64,000 bases of DNA from Xestospongia bergquistia. Its lineage: Eukaryota > Porifera > Demospongiae > Haplosclerida > Petrosiidae. Made by a program: the position numbers and the translations under genes. A model generated the notes under the pieces. It did no database searches. It had not been told where the DNA came from and was given only the letters and a program-made list of their open reading frames with translations. Of the stretch, positions 1,585-15,890 are shown one piece after another; the stretch's first letter is position 1; each line of letters opens with the position of its first letter. The stretch covers positions 3,895,001 through 3,959,000 of the forward strand of contig OZ014421.1 in the NCBI GenBank assembly GCA_963965975.1, given 5' to 3'.

Positions 1585-4205
1585 CTTAAAGACTTTAGAG
1601 CGTTAATGCAAACGAACTTAGTAAACTGTTAATAGCTCTTTACGTAGTTAGTGCCATAAAGTCCTTTAGACTGAGCAGTTTACTTTATAAACTTCTATCA
1701 ATAGTCTAAACATTCTAAAGTCTTTAACTTAAAGACGTTAGAGCGTTAATGCAAACTAACTTACTAAACTGTTAATAGCTGTTTATTTAGTTAGTGCCAT
1801 AAAATTTTTTAGACTGAGCAGTTTACTTTATAAACTTCTATCAATAGTCTAAACCTTCTAAATTCTTTAACTTAAAGACTTTAGAGCGTTAATGCAAATT
1901 AACCTACTAAACTGTTAATAGCTGTTTTTTTAGTTAGTGCCATTAAGTCCTTTAGACTGAACAGTTTACTTTATCAACTTCTCCCAATAGTCTAAACCTT
2001 CAAAGTCTTTGACATAAAGACTTTAGAGCGTTAATGCAAACTAACTTACTAAACTGTTAATAGCTTTTTAATTAGTTAGAGCCATAAACACTTTAGACTG
2101 AGCAGTTTACTTTATAAACTTCACTCAATATTCTAAAACTTCTAAAGTCTTTAACTTAAAGACTTTAGAGCGTTAATACAAACTAACTAAACTGTTAATA
2201 GCTGTTTACTTAGTTAGTGCCATAAAGTCCTTTAGACTGAGCAGTTTACTTTATAAACTTCTCTCAATAGTTAAAACCTTCTAAAGTCTTAAACTTAAAT
2301 ACTTTAGAGCGTTAATGCAAACTAACTTAATAAACTGTTAATAGCTCTTTATTTAGTTAGTGCCATAAAGTCCTTTAGACTGAGCAGTTTACTTTACAAT
2401 CTTCACTCAATATTCTAAACCTTCTAAAGTCTTTAACTTAAAGACTTTAGAGCGTTAATGCAAACTAAGTTACTAAACTGTTAATAGCTGTTTAATTAGT
2501 CAGCGCCATAAAGTCCTTCAGACTGAGCAGTTTATTTTGTAAACTTCTCTCAATAGTCTAAACCTTCTAAAGTCTTTAATTTAAAGACTTTAGAGCGTTA
2601 ATACAAACTAACTAAACTGTTAATAGCTGTTTAATTAGTTAGTGCCATAAAGTCCTTTAGACTGAGTAGTTTACTTTATAAACTTCTCTCAATAGTCTGA
2701 ACCTTCTAAAGTCTTTAATTTAAAGACTTTAGAGCGTTAATACAAACTAACTAAACTGTTAATAGCTGTTTAATTAGTTAGTGCCATAAAGTCCTTTAGA
2801 CTGAGCAGTTTACTTTAAAAACTTCTCTCAATAGTCGAAACCTTCTAAAGTCTTTAACTTAAAGACTTTAGAGCGTTAATGCAAACTAACTTACTAAACT
2901 GTTAATAGCTGTTTATTTAGTTAGTGCCTTAAAGTCCTTTAGGCTGAGCAGTTTACTTTATAAACTTCTCTCAATAGTCTAAACCTTATAAAGTCTTTTA
3001 CTTAAAGACTTTAGAGCGTTAATGCAAACTAACTCACTAAACTGTTAATACCTGTTTATTTAGTTAGTGCCATAAAGTCCTTTACACTGAGCAGTTTACT
3101 TTATGAAGTTCTAGCAATAATCTAAACATTCTAAAGTCTTTAACTTAAAGACTTTAGAGAGGTAATGCAAACTACCTTACTAAACTGTTAATAGCTGTTT
3201 ATTTAATTAGTGCCATAAAGTCCTTTAGACTGAGCAGTTTACTTTATAAACTTCTCTCAATAGTCTAAACCTACTAAACTCTTTAATTTAAAGGCTTTAG
3301 AGCGTTAATGCAAACTAACTTATAAACTGTTAATAGCTGTTTATTTAGTTAGTGCCATAAAGTCCTTTAGACTGAGCAGTTTACTTTACAAACGTCTCTC
3401 AATAGTCTAAACCTTCTAAAGTCTTTAACTTAAAGACTTTACATCGTTAATGTAAACTAACTTACTAAATTGTTAATAGCTGTTTATTTAGTTAGTGCCA
3501 TAAAGTCCTTTATACTGAGCAGTTTACTTTATCAACTTCTCTCAATAGTCTAAACCTTCTAATGTCTTTAACTTAAAGACTTTAGAGCGTTAATGTAAAC
3601 AAACTTACTAAACTGTTAATAGCTTTTTAAGTAGTTAGTGCCATAAAGTCCTTTAGACTGAGCAGATTACTTTATCAACTTCTCTCAATAGTCTAAACCT
3701 TCTAAAGTGTTTTACTTAAAGACTTTAGAGCGTTAATGCAAACTAACTTACTAAACAGTTAATAGCTGTTTATTTATTTAGTGCCATAAAGTCCTTTAGA
3801 CTGAGCAGTTTACTTTATAAACTTCTCTCAATAGTCTAAACCTTATAAAGTCTTTAATTTAATGACTTTAGAGCGTTAATGCAAACTAACTTACTAAACT
3901 GTTAATAGCTGTTTATTTAGTTAGTGCCATAAAGTCCTTTAGACTGAGCAGTTTACTTTATAAACGTCTCTCAATAGTCTAAACCTTCTAAAGTCTTTAA
4001 CTTAAAGACTTTAGAGCGTTAATGCAAACTAACTTACTAAACTGTTAATAGCTGTTTAGTTAGTTAGTGCCATAAAGTCCTTTAGACTGACAGTTTACTT
4101 TATAAACTTCTCTCAATAGTCTAATCCTTCTAAAGTCTTTAACTTAAAGACTTTAGAGCATTAATGCAAACTAACTTACTAAACTGTTAATAGCTGTTTA
4201 TTTAG
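1585..4205 (+). repeat. 143-bp satellite array, subtype A (continued)
   Basis: About 18 monomers of subtype A follow the first transposon directly. Most retain GCTGTTTATTTAGTTAGTGC and TTCTCTCAATAG. A few lose blocks of 5 to 10 bases around CAAACTAACTTACTAAAC (for example near 2180, 2610 and 2750). Three monomers with the shared variant AATACAAACTAACTAAAC lie close together, which suggests local copying. No gene is seen. Confidence 0.96.
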
Positions 4206-7200
4206 TTAGTCCCATAGAGTCCGTTAGACCTATCAGTTTACTTTGTAAATTTCACTCTATAGTCTAAACCTTTTAAGTCTTTAAATTAAAAACTTTAGAG
4301 TGTTAATGCAAACCAACTTACTAAACTGTTAATTGCAGTTTATTTAGCTAGTCCCATAGAGTCCGTTAGACCTATCATTTTACTTTGTAAATTTCACTCA
4401 ATAGTCTAAACCTTCTAAAGTCTTTAAATTAAAGACTTTAGAGTGTTAATGCAAACCAACTTACTAAACTGTTAATAGCAGTTTATTTAGTTAGTTTCAT
4501 AGAGTCCTTTAGAGTGAGCTGTTTACTTTGTAAACCTCACTCAATAGTTTAAACCTTCTAAACTCTTTAATTTAATGACTTTAGAGCATTAATGCAAACT
4601 AACTTACTAAACTGTTAATAGCTGTTTATTTAGTTAGTGCCATAAAGTCCTTTAGACTGAGCAGTTTACTTTATAAACGTCTCTCAATAGTCTAAACCTT
4701 CTAAAGTCTTTAACTTAAAGACTTTAGAGCGTTAATGCAAACTAACTTACTAAACTGTTAATAGCTGTTTAGTTAGTTAGTGCCATAAAGTCCTTTAGAC
4801 TGACAGTTTACTTTATAAACTTCTCTCAATAGTCTAATCCTTCTAAAGTCTTTAACTTAAAGACTTTAGAGCATTAATGCAAACTAACTTACTAAACTGT
4901 TAATAGCTGTTTATTTAGTTAGTCCCATAGAGTCCGTTAGACCTATCAGTTTACTTTGTAAATTTCACTCTATAGTCTAAACCTTTTAAGTCTTTAAATT
5001 AAAAACTTTAGAGTGTTAATGCAAACCAACTTACTAAACTGTTAATTGCAGTTTATTTAGCTAGTCCCATAGAGTTCGTTAGACCTATCAGTTTACTTTG
5101 TAAATTTCACTCAATAGTCTAAACCTTCTAAAGTCTTTAAATTAAAGACTTTAGAGTGTTAATGCAAACCAACTTACTAAACTGTTAATAGCAGTTTATT
5201 TAGTTAGTCCAATAGAGTCCTTCTGAATGAGCAGTTTACTTTATAAAATTTACTCAATAGACTAAACCTTCTAAAGTCTTTAAATTAAAGACGTTAGAGT
5301 GTTAATGCAAACCAACTTCCTAAACTATTAATAAAATTTTTTTTAGTTAGTCTAATAGAGTCCTTTAGACTGAGCTGTTTACTTTATAAACTTCACTCAT
5401 TAGTCTAAACCTTCTAAACTCTTTAAATTAAAGACTTTAGAGTGTTAAAGCAAACCAACTTACTAAACTGTTAATAGCAGTTTATTTAGTTAGTCCCATA
5501 GAGTCCATTAGACCTATCAGTTTACTTTGTAAATTTCACTCTATAGTCTAAACCTTCTAAAGTCTTTAAATTAAAAACTTTAGAGTGTTAATGCAAACCA
5601 ACTTACTAAACTGCTAATAGCAGTTTATTTAGCTAGTCCCATAGAGTCCGTTAGACCTATCAGTTTACTTTGTAAATTTCACTCTATAGTCTAAACCTTC
5701 TAAAGTCTTTAAATTAAAGACTTTAGAGTGTTAATGCAAACCAACTTACTAAACTGTTAATAGCAGTTTATTTAGTTAGTCCAATAGAGTCCTTTTGAAT
5801 GAGCAGTTTACTTTATAAATTTTACTCAATAGTCTAAACCTTCTAAAGTCTTTAAATTAAAGACTTTAGAGTGTTAATGCAAACCAACTTACTAAACTGT
5901 TATTAACATTGTATTTAGTTAGTCTAATAGAGTCCTTCAGCTGAGCTGTTTACTTTATAAACTTCACTCAATAGTTAAGCCTTCTAAAGTCTTTAAATTA
6001 TAGACTTTAGAGTGTTAATGGAAACCAACTTATTAAACTGTTAATAACTTTGTATTTAGTTAGTCTAATAGAGTCCTTCAGACTTAGCTGTTTACTTTAT
6101 AAACTTCACTCAATAGTTAAGCCTTCTAAACTCTTTAAATTACAGACTTTAGAGTGTTAATGCAAAGCAACTTACTAAACTATTAACAGCAGTTTATTTA
6201 GTTAGTCCCATAGAGTCCTTTAGAATGAGAGGCTTACTTTATAAAATTTACTCAAAACTCTAAACCTTCTAAAGTCTTTAACTTAAAGACTTTATAGTGT
6301 TAATGCAAACCAACTTACTAAACTGTTAATAGCAGTTTATTTAGTTAGTTTCATAGAGTCCTTTAGAGTGAGCTGTTTACTTTGTAAACCTCACTCAATA
6401 GTTTAAACCTTCTAAACTCTTTAATTTAAAGACTTTAGAGTGCTAATGCAAACCAACTTACTAAGCTTTTAATAGCAGTTTATTTAGTTAGTCCAATAGA
6501 GTCCTTTTGAATGAGCAGTTTACTTTATAAAATATACTCAACAGTCTAAACCTTCAAAAGTCTTTAAATTAAAGACTTTAGAGTGTTAATGCAGACCAAC
6601 TTACTAAACTGTTAATAAGAGTTTATTTAGTTAGTCCCATAGAGTCCTTTAGACTGAGCTCTTTACTTTATAAACTTCACTCAATAGTCTAAACCTTCTA
6701 AAGTCTTTAATTCAAAGACTTTAGAGTGTTAATACAAACCATCTTACTAAACTGTTAATAGCAGTTTATATATTTACAAACCAACTTATACAAACAATAC
6801 AAACCAACTTACTAAACTGTTAATAGCACTTTATTTAGTTAGTCCCATAGATTCCTTTAGAATGAGCAGTTTACATTATAAAAATTACTCAATAGTCTAA
6901 ACCTTCTAAAGTCTTTAAATTAAAGACTTTATATTGTTAATGCAAACCAACTTACTAATCTGTTAATAACACTTTATTTAGTTATTCCCATAGAGTCCTT
7001 TAGACTGAGCAGTTTACTTTATAAACTTCACTCAATAGTCTAAACCTTCTAATGTGTTTAAATTAAAGAGTTTAGAGCGTTAATGCAAACCAACTTATTA
7101 TACTGTTAATGCCATTTTATTTAGTTGGTGCCATTAAGTCCTTTAGACTGAGCAATATACTTTAAAAATTTCACTTATTAGTCTAAGGTTTCTAAGCTCT

Positions 7201-9345: not shown

Positions 9346-10113
9346 ACCATTAACAGTTTATTAAGTTTGTTTGCAATAACACTTTTAAATCTTTAAATTA
9401 AAGACTTAAGAATGTTTAGACTGTTGAGTAAATTTTAAAAAGTAAACTGCTGAGACAGAAGGACTTAAAGGGACTAACTGAGTAAACTGCCATTAACAGT
9501 TTGTCAAGTTTGTTTGCATTAATGCTCTAAATTCTTTAATTTAAAGACTTTAGAAGGTTTAGACTATTGAGTGAACTTTCTAAAGTAATCTGTTCAGACT
9601 AAAGGACTTAAAGGGACCTACGTAATAATAATCTGCAATTAATGGTTTACTAAATTTGAGTGTATTAAAACATTAAAGTCTCAAATTTAAAGACTTTAAG
9701 AGGGTTAGGCTATTGATTTCAGTTTATAAAGTAAAGTGAAAAGAGTAAAGGACTTAAAACGACTAACTAAATAAACTGCCATTAACATTTATTAAGTTTC
9801 TTTGCATTAATGCTCTAAAGTCTTAAATTTAAAGACTTTAGAAGGTTTAGTTTATTGAGTGAATTTTATAAAGTAAACTGCTCAAAGTAAAAGACTTAAA
9901 GGGACTAACTAAATAAACTAGAATTAACATTTTATTAAGTTTGTTTCCAATAACGCTCTATTGACTTTATTTTAAAGACTTTAGAAGTTTAGACTATTGA
10001 GTTAAGGTTATAAAATAAACTGTTGAGACTAAAAGACTTACAATGACTAACTAAATAAATTACCATTAACAGTTTATTAAGTTTGTTTGCATTTACGCTT
10101 TAAAGTCTTTAAT
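9346..10113 (-). repeat. 143-bp satellite, inverted block, part 1
   Basis: From about 9346 the monomers read as the complement of the preceding array: CCATTAACAGTTTATTAAG, GCTCTAAAG, TTTAGACTATTGAGT, GTAAACTGCTGAGAC. The period is unchanged. Copies are more divergent than in the flanking arrays (for example AGTGAAAAGAG near 9740 for the usual GTAAACTGCTCAGAC). No gene is seen. Confidence 0.94.
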
Positions 10114-11308: not shown

Positions 11309-11312
11309 AAAT

Positions 11313-11350
11313 GTGACCGTAAATACGAAAATGGTACCTAACGCGCAATT
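11313..11350 (+). repeat. left terminal inverted repeat of the 4.2-kb transposon
   Basis: Begins GTGACCGTAAATACGAAA and continues through GGTACCTAACGCGCAATT. It pairs with 15503-15540 and differs at one base (C here, T in the complement of the other end). The high identity suggests that the element inserted fairly recently compared with the age of the satellite. Confidence 0.93.
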
Positions 11351-11627
11351 ATTGTTTTTTCACTACAGGCTAAAATATGTTCCAAATGGTTGACTAATGG
11401 AAATCGAGATTTCGGTATAGTCGAGGTCCACAAACACTATACCTCATGTTGCTCTTTCAAACTTAACAAAATTCTATGTTTTCCAATGTTATAACAATTT
11501 TTCTAACACAACTGTTATAGTATACGGTTTTACCGCGAATGGAGCCATGCTTGACGTGATGCACTGCCCTGGTAACACAGGCCCTTGCGCGCTAAGAGCT
11601 GCAGCTGTTGCTTTCAGTTAGAATTCG

Positions 11628-11778
11628 ATGGACAAAACAAAACAAATTGCTAAAGTCTTGAACAATCTTACCACGAGTAGATCGTTTTGTTCCAGTGACC
11701 AATCTCTACTAGAATCCTTTATAGAGGAATACTTCCTTAGCGAAGACAGTTCCTTCGATGAACACGATGACTATTCCA
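11628..11778 (+). other. exon 1 of the transposase-like pseudogene (acidic N-terminus)
   Basis: Fifty codons plus one base, starting MDKTKQIAKVLNN and ending in the acidic run LSEDSSFDEHDDYS. The donor GTATGT at 11779 and the acceptor TTTTAAG before 11860 join it in phase 1 to an exon that continues DKEVDLSEYHHH. After about 11950 the frame is lost and shifts more than once before recovering at 12358. Confidence 0.7.
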
Positions 11779-12357
11779 GTATGTTTATTAAATTCTTACT
11801 ATTTCTAGTTTTACTTTGACTTTACTAATTATTTAATAATCAAACATAATTATTTTAAGGCGACAAAGAAGTAGACCTCTCCGAATATCATCATCACATA
11901 GAGGCTTCTACAATATTGGGAAGTGGTATTATTGAGGCTCCTGAAGAGACTACAGAAGGTAGATGTTACATTAATGAAACATAGTCATACCTCTTTTGTA
12001 GAAGAAATCGAGCAGCATAACACAGATACTAATGAAGTAGCAGCACCTAATGATGTACAAGATAAAACAGACAATGTCTTGTACAATTCATACACCTTGT
12101 TTAGTTATGGAACATGATAGCACTCCTTTGGAAAGGAGTACAGTTAATGTTATTACTCTACCACAAAGGGAAAATGATGAAAGTAAGCTCAATAAAACAA
12201 AATCTTCAGACATACCATAATTACGGTAGATGTTGTTTATGAATCTGCTGACATAGCAGTACAAGAAAGTTAGTCAATCTATTACCATAGTTGACCATCA
12301 ATTTCATTGTGATATTTCAGTTGAGGTTACGCTGGATGACAGAGGTATAACAGAAAT

Positions 12358-12621
12358 GAAAAAGAGAAAATAGATTACTTCTTTGAGACTGGATGTGGGT
12401 GTGGGTCATATAGGAATGGTCCTTGTAGCAGAGCCTTCTCAGTAGACCACTACGAATCTATTATGAGTCAATGTCAAGCATTGGACCATTCGACACTTGA
12501 TTTTGTTATTTTTGGACAAATAATGGCCAGCATATCGACATCTACAAAGATTCAACATAGAGGACATCAGGTAAAGGACAGTGAAAAAATAAGAACACAG
12601 TTCATGCATCAAGGTATTAAG
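12358..12621 (+). other. intact exon part with Cys-rich segment
   Basis: An open stretch of 88 codons beginning EKEKIDYFFETGCGCG and ending FMHQGIK at a donor GTAGTG. It holds the cysteines of GCGCGSYRNGPC and a helical stretch around LDFVIFGQIMA. The next exon, from 12672, continues in phase 0 with ICRTTFLFLHSISRKRL. This order (Cys-rich start, then FFLH and KRL) agrees with what I recall of DUF7869-type proteins. Confidence 0.7.
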
Positions 12622-12671
12622 GTAGTGTAAGCACAGCTTTCAACAATTGACTAACAGAATATATCTTATAG

Positions 12672-13142
12672 ATTTGTAGGACAACTTTTCTATTCTTGCA
12701 TAGCATCAGTAGAAAGAGATTAGATGCCATCAGGCTAAGCTATCTCAACTACGGATTAAATACAAGAATTCACCGCAATGCTAATCAGCTACCACACAAT
12801 GCATACACAACAGAGGAACTGAAACATACAGTCACATTCATAAAAAACTACGCTGAAACTCATGGTATTTTACTACCAGGGAGAATCCCTGGTTATAAAA
12901 GAATAGACAAACAATTGCTTCCGACTCACATGACAAAGAGAGGAGTATGGAATGATTACATTCGTGCAAATGGACCACCATCAAAGCGTATAGCTGGATA
13001 CATGAGCTTTATCAAAATATGGAAGAAGTTTGCTCCTCACGTCGTCATCACAAAACCAAGATCAGATCTCTGCTGGATATGCCAGAGAAATTCTGTTGCA
13101 ATTACTCAGGCTGCTAATTCATCTGAGTCTCACAAACTACAG
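12672..13142 (+). other. exon with LPGRIPG and CWICQ motifs
   Basis: This 157-codon stretch has no stop. It carries RIHRNANQLPHNAY, ILLPGRIPGYKR and the pair of cysteines in SDLCWICQRNS, probably a metal-binding site. It ends HKLQ at a donor GTAAAT, and the following exon begins IIDSAKAHIEQATIERNFY, in phase 0. Confidence 0.75.
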
Positions 13143-13190
13143 GTAAATATGAACGATAACAACAAAGGTAATAATGATAATTTATACTAG

Positions 13191-13496
13191 ATCATTGATT
13201 CAGCAAAGGCTCACATTGAGCAAGCAACAATTGAGAGAAATTTCTACAAAGCTGAATGTGCTAAAAGCAAAAATAACATTGAACAAGGGTTCACAATCAA
13301 TGAACTAACTTTCTGTCTGCCTCCTTTTAGAACCTCCATTACTAACTGTACAAGAGACATAAGTCTTCATCTAAGTTTTGATTTTGCACAGCAAATGCAT
13401 TATCCAAGCAACCCCTTACAACCTGGACCAATTTATTTCCTAACACCAAGAAAGTGTGGGCTATTTGGTATATGCTGTGAGGGAATACCCAGACAG
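13191..13496 (+). other. exon with the conserved FDFAQQ / CCEG core
   Basis: 102 codons, open throughout. Motifs are LSFDFAQQMHYPSNP, GPIYFLTPRKCGLFG and CCEGIPRQ. The aspartate of SFDFAQQ lies where the first catalytic acidic residue of an RNase H-like nuclease fold would be expected, just after a hydrophobic strand; that catalytic role is inference. The exon joins in phase 0 to VNYLIDES at 13545. Confidence 0.75.
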
Positions 13497-13544
13497 GTAA
13501 ATATTAATCATACAATACTTACATAGCAGGCAGTCCTTTTCTAG

Positions 13545-13705
13545 GTTAACTACTTGATTGATGAATCTTGTGACACTGGCAAAGGATCGAACAAGGTTGT
13601 TAGCTTGTTACGTGACTTTCTCACTAACTTTGGGCTCGGAGAGATGCACCAGTCTATGCATGCTGACACTGTATAGGACAAAACAAGAATAACACGGTTA
13701 TTCAG
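13545..13705 (+). other. exon with the HAD-N-C motif broken by a one-base loss
   Basis: The reading runs VNYLIDESCDTGKGSN, LLRDFLTNFGLGE and then MHAD, after which the frame meets TAG at 13674. Read one base over, the sequence continues CIGQNKNNTVIQ to the donor at 13706. The family motif here, as I remember it, is HADNC-GQNKNN, so a single base is missing at about 13668, in the second candidate acidic motif. Confidence 0.7.
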
Positions 13706-13763
13706 GTAAAATAATAACTATCAAAATTATCATCATTATTAATATTAAATTTACTTAAAATAG

Positions 13764-14380
13764 TATCTGTGCTGGAGAGTGATGGTTGGTCTGAGCAGAT
13801 CCATTATTCTCTCATTTATGGAAGTTGGACATACCAAGTTTGCACCAGATGCAGGTTTTGGACTAATCAAACAAAAATACAAAAAAACAAATGTCGAATG
13901 CCTGCAAGACATCGTTCAAATGATTAACGAGTCAGCAGCACTTAACGAAACAAGACTTGTAGGAACACAGGATGGACAATGATAGTTCCAACGTATGATT
14001 GGTCCACTCATCTTGGTGTATATTTCAAAAAGGTCCCAAAAATTAAGCAGTATCATCAGTTTTACTTTGTTGCTGAGAAGCCAGGCAGGGTCTTTGTTAA
14101 AAGGTTCAGTGATTCTGAACAGCTGGAGCTTGATCTTAGAAAGAGTGATTTATCTTGGAGCCCATCATCAGCCTAATTACCACCTGTAGTTCATCCAAAG
14201 GGATTGTCTGAGAAGAGGCAGTGGTATCTCTTTGAAAAAATCCGACCATTTTGTATTTCTTTGAGATCAAAGGATCTCACTTGTCCACAACCTACTGCAT
14301 TAAGACCAAAAAATTGCTCTAATGAACAACACGTCTCCTCTTCAGAACAAGATGTTGAAGCTCCTCTAGACTTACATCAG
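13764..14380 (+). other. exon with GHTKFAPD and VPTYDW, one frameshift and one stop
   Basis: Starts YLCWRVMVGLSRS in phase 0, then EVGHTKFAPDAGFGLIKQK, and runs to LVGTQDGQ. The frame ends at 13979 and resumes one base over with IVPTYDWSTHLG. A TAA at 14174 interrupts the resumed frame, which then continues LPPVVHPKGLSEKRQWY and EKIRPFC to LDLHQ at the donor (14381). Together these are two lesions in an exon of 617 bases. Confidence 0.72.
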
Positions 14381-14423
14381 GTAAATTAACTAAATCAATA
14401 ATAACATATTTATGGTATTTTAG

Positions 14424-14509
14424 ATTCCCCTCCAAGAAAGCGATTAAGAATCCGTGGTAATTGTGGTATTGCTGGCCATAATCGAAGATCCTGTCAAAAG
14501 AGCAACTAA
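14424..14509 (+). other. last exon: C-terminal zinc knuckle lacking its first cysteine
   Basis: Codes for SPPRKRLRIRGNCGIAGH then NRRSCQKSN and a stop. A CX2CX4HX4C knuckle would read C-x-x-C-GIAG-H-NRRS-C; the first position here is Arg (CGT), one step from Cys (TGT). The phase across the 43-bp intron also does not fit exactly, so a small indel near the junction is likely. Such a Cys-rich tail after a basic run is, from memory, usual for this family. Confidence 0.55.
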
Positions 14510-14570
14510 TTTCATTGCTTCATCATTACTGGGCATTTCAACTTATAATATTCCTGTTAACGATTCTTTT

Positions 14571-14760
14571 CAGAACCACCACTCCCATTCTTTACAATGG
14601 TTCTTTTCAGAACCACCACTCCCATTCTTACAATGGTTCTTTCAGAACCACCACTCCCATTCTTTATAACGGTTCTTTTCAGAACCACCACTCCCATTCT
14701 TTACAATGGTTCTTTTCAGAACCAAAAACAATTTTTAACGGTTCTTTTAAGAATCACCAT
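14571..14760 (+). repeat. 37-bp minisatellite downstream of the pseudogene
   Basis: Four units begin at 14571, 14608, 14643 and 14680 (37, 35, 37 and 37 bp). They start CAGAACCACCACTCCCATTC and end AATGGTTCTTTT. A fifth, degraded unit runs from 14717. It lies just after the stop codon of the transposase-like gene, in its presumed 3' untranslated region. The open frames over it (rich in NHHSHS and WFF) are products of the repeat, not a gene. Confidence 0.9.
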
Positions 14761-15502
14761 TTACAACACAAGATTTCAATTGTTACATTAAAAATTAAGC
14801 AGGAATGAGGAAATGAATATTCTGGTAGAGTGTGAAAATGCCTAATCCAACTTTTAAAAAGTAACATTTAGAACTATTGACATATCACCAACAATACACA
14901 ACATTCTACCACAATGATAATAGTTATAATACTTTGACTTCAAACTCAATAATAAGATTAACAAACAATAAGGCAGAAACAGTTTTTATTGTACACTATC
15001 CAACGTCTTCATTTGCATGAGTTCTGCCACTTAGAACTAACATACATTATCTAATAAAGTCTAACCCTTAACTAATAAAATGTTGACACATCTCGAGATT
15101 CTTTGACTCCAATCTAAATTCATCATGAGAAGGTAGCGCGGCACCTATTGGATAGTGACAGAATAGTATACTAATCTATCAAATACTTCACTTACTAATC
15201 AGACATAGTTTAGCCTTCTTCGTAGTAAAGAAGTCAAATGAGAGCATCGCCATCATCTTCCTGGCTATTTAGCCACCATGAGGTCTTGTGGTTTATCATG
15301 TGACATTATTCAATACGGAGTAAGATTACGGAAACATTGAAAAATAGCTAAAAATGCATTTTTCTCAATAAAATAATTAACAAACGAAGCGTCTTCCTCC
15401 TCGCGTATCTTGGAAACGGGACGCGTGATTCCAAAAGGACAAAAAACATTTTGTAGCCAAAAACAAGCTTAACCATGTCGTGTGACTATCTCAAATTCTT
15501 CA
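14761..15502 (+). other. 3' non-coding part of the 4.2-kb transposon
   Basis: About 740 bp of AT-rich sequence with no frame of note on either strand, between the minisatellite and the right terminal repeat. The only feature I can point to is AATAAA at about 15366, a possible polyadenylation signal in an AT-rich context. Nothing else is recognised. Confidence 0.5.
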
Positions 15503-15540
15503 AATTGCGCATTAGGTACCATTTTCGTATTTACGGTCAC
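15503..15540 (-). repeat. right terminal inverted repeat of the 4.2-kb transposon
   Basis: Ends in TTTCGTATTTACGGTCAC, the complement of the left end. It is followed at once by AAAT, the second copy of the putative target duplication. Confidence 0.93.
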
Positions 15541-15544
15541 AAAT

Positions 15545-15890
15545 TGTTTAATTTAAAGACTTTATAAGGTTTCGACTATTGAGTTTAGTGTATAAAACAA
15601 ACTGCTGAGACTAAGGGACTTAAAGGGACTAAGTAAATAAACTGCCATTGACAGCTTATTAACTTTGTTTCATTAACGTTCAAAAGTTTTTAATTCAAAG
15701 ATTTTAGAAGGTTGAAACTGTAGAGTTAACTTTATAAAGTAAACTGCTCAGAATAAAGGACTTAAAGAGACTTACAAAATAAACTGCCATTATCAGTTTA
15801 TTAAGTTTATTTCCATTAACGCTCTAAAGTCTTTAATTTAAAGACTTTAGGGGTTTTACACTATTCACTGTACTTTAAAAAGTACACTTA
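15545..15890 (-). repeat. 143-bp satellite, inverted block, part 3
   Basis: About two and a half complemented monomers run to an inversion breakpoint near 15890. There GTACTTTAAAAAGTACACT passes into forward-reading TAATAGTCCCTTTAGGTC. The breakpoint sits beside a short palindrome, ACTTTAAAAAGT. No gene is seen. Confidence 0.92.

Follow-up and report, generated by a model that had tools for sequence, protein, structure and literature searches.

What moves a 4,228-bp sequence that is bounded by inverted repeats and embedded in satellite DNA, and is the mover encoded by the one gene inside it? We scrutinized this question in a 64,000-nucleotide stretch of Xestospongia bergquistia DNA (contig OZ014421.1, positions 3,895,001 to 3,959,000; hereafter the window), where an earlier note, made from the letters alone, had proposed a complete-looking transposon built around a gene resembling DUF7869. 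The feature is very probably a copy of a cut-and-paste DNA transposon whose sole gene encodes a DUF7869 transposase. That DUF7869 is a transposase at all is, on sequence comparison, more probable still. It is the present analysis that ties DUF7869 to inverted ends and to AWWT duplications.

An Inverted Repeat-Bounded Element Duplicated Four Bases of Its Target Satellite

The element occupies positions 11313 to 15540 of the window and is bounded by 38-bp terminal inverted repeats (TIRs; 11313 to 11350 and 15503 to 15540) with one mismatch between them. The arms as detected were 39 nt long and 97% identical (11312 to 11350 and 15503 to 15541); the 38-bp limits were set by the boundary seen in other copies. 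The word AAAT stands at both sides, and the surrounding DNA is an AT-rich satellite with a 142- to 143-bp period. Joining the flanks with one AAAT gave a 120-base joint that agreed, without gaps, with other satellite of the window at up to 97/120 positions, and 33 places in the window satellite matched it at 90 or more. Joined without AAAT, the best satellite match was 78/120, and with two copies of the word it was 75/120. The satellite register is regained only with one AAAT and, hence, four satellite bases were duplicated by the insertion. The inverted repeats, the matching AAAT words, and the satellite restored on removal, all described in the earlier note, were each borne out.

Copies Across the Genome Share Ends and AWWT Duplications

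The end pattern of this family (family A), allowing up to three mismatches, occurred at at least 103 sites (48 + 55) in the 146-Mb genome, and the same pattern read backwards, as a control, at none. Forty loci were fetched by place and examined together with the window copy. These gave 36 pairs of ends, 33 of them with distinct flanks, and the element boundaries were consistent among family-A copies; disagreement over the boundaries, which had been named beforehand as evidence against the element, was not seen. Eight pairs were long (on C14, on C2, and in the window), two measured 1.1 and 1.6 kb, and 26 were short (24 of 257 to 258 bp, one of 206 bp, and one of 181 bp). Fetched loci that lacked one or both ends (L015, L016, L017, L019, L020, and L028) were left out of the count, and L012 was entered twice for its two left ends. 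These lie at 441 and 611, 170 bp apart, with one right end, and would be explained by a nested insertion or by an additional solo end. The 1.1- and 1.6-kb copies (L018, 372 to 1482, and L021, 407 to 1977) are derivatives with diverged family-A ends, perhaps of an older non-autonomous subfamily. On C14, five copies between 2.58 and 3.19 Mb (L009 to L013) share one orientation at spacings of 137 to 172 kb and, as four of the five have both flanks in common, these are segmental duplicates of one insertion, left by a large-scale duplication (segmental or tandem).

Target sites were compared in 40 copies with distinct flanks, 33 from family A and seven from other lineages (families A to E in all). 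Identical 4-bp flanks were found in 36 of them, every one fitting AWWT (29 ATAT, 4 AAAT, 2 ATTT, and 1 AATT) and none being TTAA. As background, 3.6% of the window's words and 5.7% of those in six short-copy loci were AWWT. Given that ATAT is self-complementary, it could alone be part of a longer inverted repeat. In the six AAAT or ATTT copies, however, the word was repeated directly in 6/6 and as its reverse complement in 0/6, which identifies a true duplication; a longer inverted repeat in place of a duplication fitted none of these copies and was rejected. Copies at different sites with the same ends and a 4-bp duplication, the test that the earlier note had set, were therefore present.

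One Spliced Gene Encodes a DUF7869 Protein

The interior of the element holds one spliced gene with GT-AG introns (read by eye), in keeping with the first description. By eye, it starts at an ATG at 11628 and ends at a TAA at 14507 to 14509, after a zinc-knuckle-like tail. In a hidden Markov model check against Pfam, the exon at 13764 to 13979 matched DUF7869 (PF25273) at 28.4 bits (cut-off 26, E 1.4e-6), so that what had been called DUF7869-like now stands above threshold. The motifs follow one another across the exons in the order SFDFAQQ, HAD, and GHTKFAPD.

Family A is homologous from residue 134 to 629 to a protein of a Legionellales assembly (L094, described below). D430, D472, and D523 were identical in all 11 relatives compared, which represent seven lineages, and D351 in all ten relatives covering it. 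The aspartates of the first two motifs together with D472 or D523 would, on sequence conservation, form a DDD-type catalytic set.

The window copy was aligned with seven other family-A sequences. One base is missing from the exon that carries the second conserved aspartate and another near the end of the next exon; neither gap occurs in any of the other seven. A TAA further downstream is common to four of the seven. The identity to the four aligned C14 copies was 98.6 to 98.9%. Of the term "complete-looking", the part that concerns the ends stood, and the part that concerns the gene, broken by two 1-bp deletions, did not.

Four Diverged DUF7869 Lineages Have Ends of the Same Kind

A search of the genome with Pfam DUF7869 gave 60 matches at E up to 10, merged into 44 loci, six of which had a best E above 0.01, so that a few may be chance. 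Nucleotide comparison sorted many of these loci into groups A (the window element) to F. In four further, more diverged lineages, 7/7 joined copies had inverted ends starting GTGAC and identical 4-bp flanks (ATAT in five, ATTT in one, and AATT in one). Consistent with these ends, the likeness within groups B, C, D, and E stops at GTCAC in nearly all members shown (GTCAT in L047), and the TIR of group C is 39 bp long. Inverted ends are thus present in five lineages. Among the ends listed, an end of a known group lay 0.5 to 1.7 kb downstream of 26/44 loci. For this test, six group D ends were taken from 40 listed of 124 candidates and family-A ends were entered by hand.

By eye, the ATTT and AATT copies of the other lineages lie in seemingly the same satellite type as the window copy. 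On the contig of the window (C11), group E and group D elements occur at 3.52 and 3.57 Mb (L054 + L092 and L049 + L088), also in seemingly the same satellite. The C-terminus of family D includes a zinc-knuckle-like peptide (E 3e-4, below the Pfam cut-off), and in the first third of a group D element on C1 (C1:11033892-11038176) the gene region carries one peptide (GDNSHYPTSGKNENVQILT and the like) in several imperfect repeats.

Relatives in Prokaryotes Are Compact Units with Inverted Ends

Three DUF7869 relatives were found in prokaryote assemblies, as units of 2.0 to 2.1 kb with 35- to 38-bp inverted ends. In the Legionellales assembly (MHBB01000045.1; L094), an uninterrupted 635-aa frame lies in a 2,108-bp unit with a 35-bp TIR with one mismatch and AATT at both sides. 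In Candidatus Thiomargarita nelsonii (JSZA02000368.1; L093), the frame is 631 aa long and its unit, of about 2,058 bp, has a perfect 38-bp TIR. In the third (L110), from an assembly related to that of L093, the protein is in two frames of a 2,044-bp unit with a perfect 35-bp TIR and ATTT at both sides. An AWWT duplication is therefore present in two of the three (L094 and L110). Both L094 (88.9 bits) and L093 (82 bits) passed the DUF7869 cut-off of 26 bits, no NCBIfam curated model, those of insertion sequence families included, matched these two proteins over its cut-off, and the other frames listed in their units were all 102 aa or shorter. Over residues 345 to 560, sequences from the genome of the window were 46 to 52% identical to L094. 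An unrooted FastTree of the core placed L093, L094, and L110 together (support 0.98) and this group beside A and B (0.81, weak). The many copies, the four further lineages, and these prokaryote relatives, which are organised like insertion sequences, all support the proposal of the earlier note that a DUF7869 protein probably serves as transposase to a cut-and-paste element that duplicates 4 bp of its target.

The family looks rare in prokaryotes. A scan with narrow patterns yielded two loci from 50 pattern-matching stretches, and relatives occurred in 1/369 genomes of one class, 1/398 genomes of one phylum, and 2/143 related genomes, the centre genome being counted each time. No relatives were detected in viral contigs by protein, alignment, or pattern scan, nor in the phages and plasmids scanned. 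In the L093 contig, the last 75 bases (3598 to 3672) are the reverse complement of the first 75, the contig ends being a fold-back or assembly artefact, and a frame at the contig start (1 to 606) resembles what we take to be an IS630-type transposase.

Features of the Window

Coordinates are collected in Table 1. The satellite that covers positions 1 to 31857 (period about 143 bp) flips its unit orientation near 9347 and again near 15890, and the element is located in the reversed block between these points. Several tandem-repeat arrays, with units of 280 to 284, 412, 375, and 37 bp, occupy 33648 to 62443.

Table 1. Coordinates of the DUF7869 element and its parts in the window
Feature	Position	Strand	Basis or remark
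Target site duplication, left copy, AAAT	11309..11312	.	Fits AWWT
Left TIR, 38 bp, starts GTGACC	11313..11350	+	Same boundary in other family-A copies
Transposase gene (predicted), spliced, broken in window copy	11628..14509	+	Limits by eye; exons by open reading frame (ORF) and homology to L094
Exon, N-terminal conserved region	12672..13142	+	ORF; 29% identical to L094 protein
Exon with first conserved aspartate (SFDFAQQ)	13191..13496	+	Homology to L094
Exon with second conserved aspartate, carries 1-bp deletion	13545..13705	+	
Exon matching Pfam DUF7869, conserved aspartate of GHTKFAPD	13764..13979	+	1-bp deletion just after
37-bp tandem repeat, 4.4 copies, inside element, 3' of gene	14564..14724	.	
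Right TIR, 38 bp, 1 mismatch to left TIR	15503..15540	-	
Target site duplication, right copy, AAAT	15541..15544	.	

Proposed Mechanism and Alternative Explanations

In the mechanism we propose, the DUF7869 protein would bind the GTGACC ends, cut the element out, and join it to a 4-bp staggered AWWT site, with ATAT preferred; the staggered joining would leave the 4-bp direct repeats. The predicted enzyme would have an RNase H fold and would move the element by cut-and-paste rather than by copying. As its ends are intact, the window copy could still be moved in trans by transposase made elsewhere, which is how the 257-bp short copies must have moved.

A number of observations weigh against this reading. 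The window copy itself is a decayed element with intact ends and a broken gene, as the two deletions and the shared TAA indicate. The 4-bp flanks differed in four of the 40 distinct-flank copies, the flanks of L093 show no clear duplication, and its contig folds back at the ends. D266, E384, and E396 are as invariant as the aspartates and the comparison covers 11 relatives from seven lineages only, so the choice of catalytic residues is that of a candidate set. Two AlphaFold models, one of the L094 protein aligned with five other sequences (mean predicted local distance difference test, pLDDT, 45.3) and one of its last 301 residues aligned with four (mean pLDDT 39.3), were both of low confidence and yielded no fold in which the aspartates could be placed; the strand-helix order in the second model was given no weight. 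No transposase came up when solved structures were searched by profile; the three matches (E 0.58 to 0.63) were to unrelated enzymes and were taken as chance.

Loci without ends belong to the same side of the balance. Among the ends listed, 18/44 DUF7869 loci had no matched end, eight of which were inspected individually; one locus counted as endless (C4:3520159, L015) is nevertheless a family-A copy with its left end present. Two D-type loci had no D end within 1.5 kb downstream, and neither the four loci of clade F (C4:3696228, C3:5362684, C7:4275355, and C6:2127803) nor C2:15087177 had a GTGAC-type end pair in the 7.5 to 9.6 kb searched around each. The C4 and C3 loci of clade F score higher against Pfam DUF7869 than any other locus of the genome and share parts with 96% identity; their homology breaks off at 2534 and at 6578 in the merged C4 sequence, and 600-base stretches at these boundaries held no inverted match longer than 10 bp. 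A looser search for exact 14-base inverted pairs gave one pair at the C3 locus, nine at the C6 locus (eight of them AT runs), and 13 at the C2 locus, none of which was taken as element ends. One set of the C2 pairs belongs to an inverted match of 104 bp (83%) whose arms stand about 6 kb from each other, with other local repeats around, and the DUF7869 gene of this merged stretch (C2:15083500-15091000; L105, L058, and L106) lies between these arms. Clade F might represent another type of element, or its gene might belong to the host. The earlier note had held that family genes consistently lacking inverted repeats would tell against its proposal; the 26 loci with a downstream end speak for the proposal, and clade F and the three other loci, where searched, do not.

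Among the alternatives, the suggestion that DUF7869 is a host gene, flanked by repeats that are satellite or duplication artefacts, might draw on the C14 copies, segmental duplicates rather than independent insertions. It is contradicted by copies elsewhere, whose flanks differ and carry direct repeats of 4 bp, and the empty satellite site is regained only with one AAAT; a host gene is extremely improbable. DUF7869 might instead be a passenger in an element moved by another, unseen transposase, as could be argued from a catalytic activity that is deduced rather than observed, from two poor AlphaFold models, and from DUF7869 loci that show no ends. Yet no gene other than that of DUF7869 was recognised in the elements, five lineages carry it with ends that differ, the other frames listed in the 2.1-kb L093 and L094 units are at most 102 aa long, and the aspartates and their surroundings are invariant; we regard a passenger as quite improbable.

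The most serious alternative concerns classification. DUF7869 elements could form a superfamily of their own with a transposase not homologous to that of Sola, uniting bacterial insertion sequences of about 2 kb with intron-containing animal transposons and their short non-autonomous copies, in which case the AWWT likeness to Sola2 would reflect convergence or a shared AT preference. In its favor, the likeness to Sola2 is known from descriptions of target, duplication, and TIRs and not from protein comparison, a point that also counts against our own assignment, and the Repbase superfamily criterion is transposase homology by PSI-BLAST (PMC4455052). The Pfam name of DUF7869 gives no function, and a literature search, with most subscription papers outside its reach, returned no mention of DUF7869 or its motif strings. 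The eukaryotic-prokaryotic transposon pairs listed in the accessible text of PMC10045372 likewise omit DUF7869 elements, so that a separate superfamily, if real, would add a further bacteria-to-eukaryote connection to that list. Against it, the accounts of Sola and Sola2 (PMC3627910 and PMC10741241) agree with the DUF7869 elements in the length of the duplication (4 bp), in the exact set of AWWT words, in having TIRs, and in being found in bacteria and animals alike. We consider a separate superfamily unlikely, and that its transposase is unrelated to that of Sola equally doubtful.

The preferred reading, a DUF7869 transposase moving its own element, offers a mechanism for a Pfam domain of unknown function. 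Further elements should be findable by GTGAC or GGG ends with AWWT duplications, and members of the family annotated as uncharacterised "host" proteins could be reassigned to transposons. Lacking introns, the bacterial relatives would make the enzyme easier to study, and they tie the elements of eukaryotes to insertion sequences of bacteria. Should the family be Sola2, two catalogues become linked; if not, a new superfamily is added.

Comparison with Known Transposon Groups

Three groups share 4-bp duplications and inverted ends with the DUF7869 elements, namely piggyBac, Kolobok, and Sola3. Of these, piggyBac and Sola3 target TTAA. Kolobok also targets TTAA (PMC9587614). In contrast, the target of the DUF7869 elements was AWWT in 36/36 duplications, and Pfam scans of DUF7869 proteins gave no match to piggyBac, Kolobok, or Sola3 transposases. 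Ginger1 and Ginger2 resemble the DUF7869 elements in their 4-bp duplications (4 or 4 to 5 bp; PMC10045372). Unlike these, DUF7869 proteins had no retroviral-type integrase match in the Pfam scans.

The Sola superfamily reportedly goes back to Bao et al. in 2009. Sola elements are described as having a DDD transposase, 4-bp duplications, and TIRs of 11 to 1,124 bp, and as occurring in bacteria and metazoans (PMC10741241). The TIRs found here (38 bp in the window, 39 bp in group C, and 35 to 38 bp in prokaryotes) fall in that range, and the family is likewise present in bacteria (L093 and L094) and in the metazoan genome of the window. Sola2 of the slime moulds Dictyostelium fasciculatum and Polysphondylium pallidum makes AT-rich 4-bp AWWT duplications (ATAT, AAAT, and ATTT), with TIRs of 12 to 21 bp and, in one case, a transposase of 888 aa (PMC3627910). 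The DUF7869 elements differ from slime-mould Sola2 in TIR length (about 35 to 39 bp) and in protein length (631 to 635 aa in the bacteria), and share with it TIRs and 4-bp AWWT duplications that include the same three words. Since AWWT is the printed Sola2 target, the guess of the earlier note that this might be a Sola-type element already catalogued is probably right. By this comparison of descriptions, the element works like Sola2 and is probably a member of that group within the Sola superfamily, and DUF7869 would then be the Sola2 catalytic domain.

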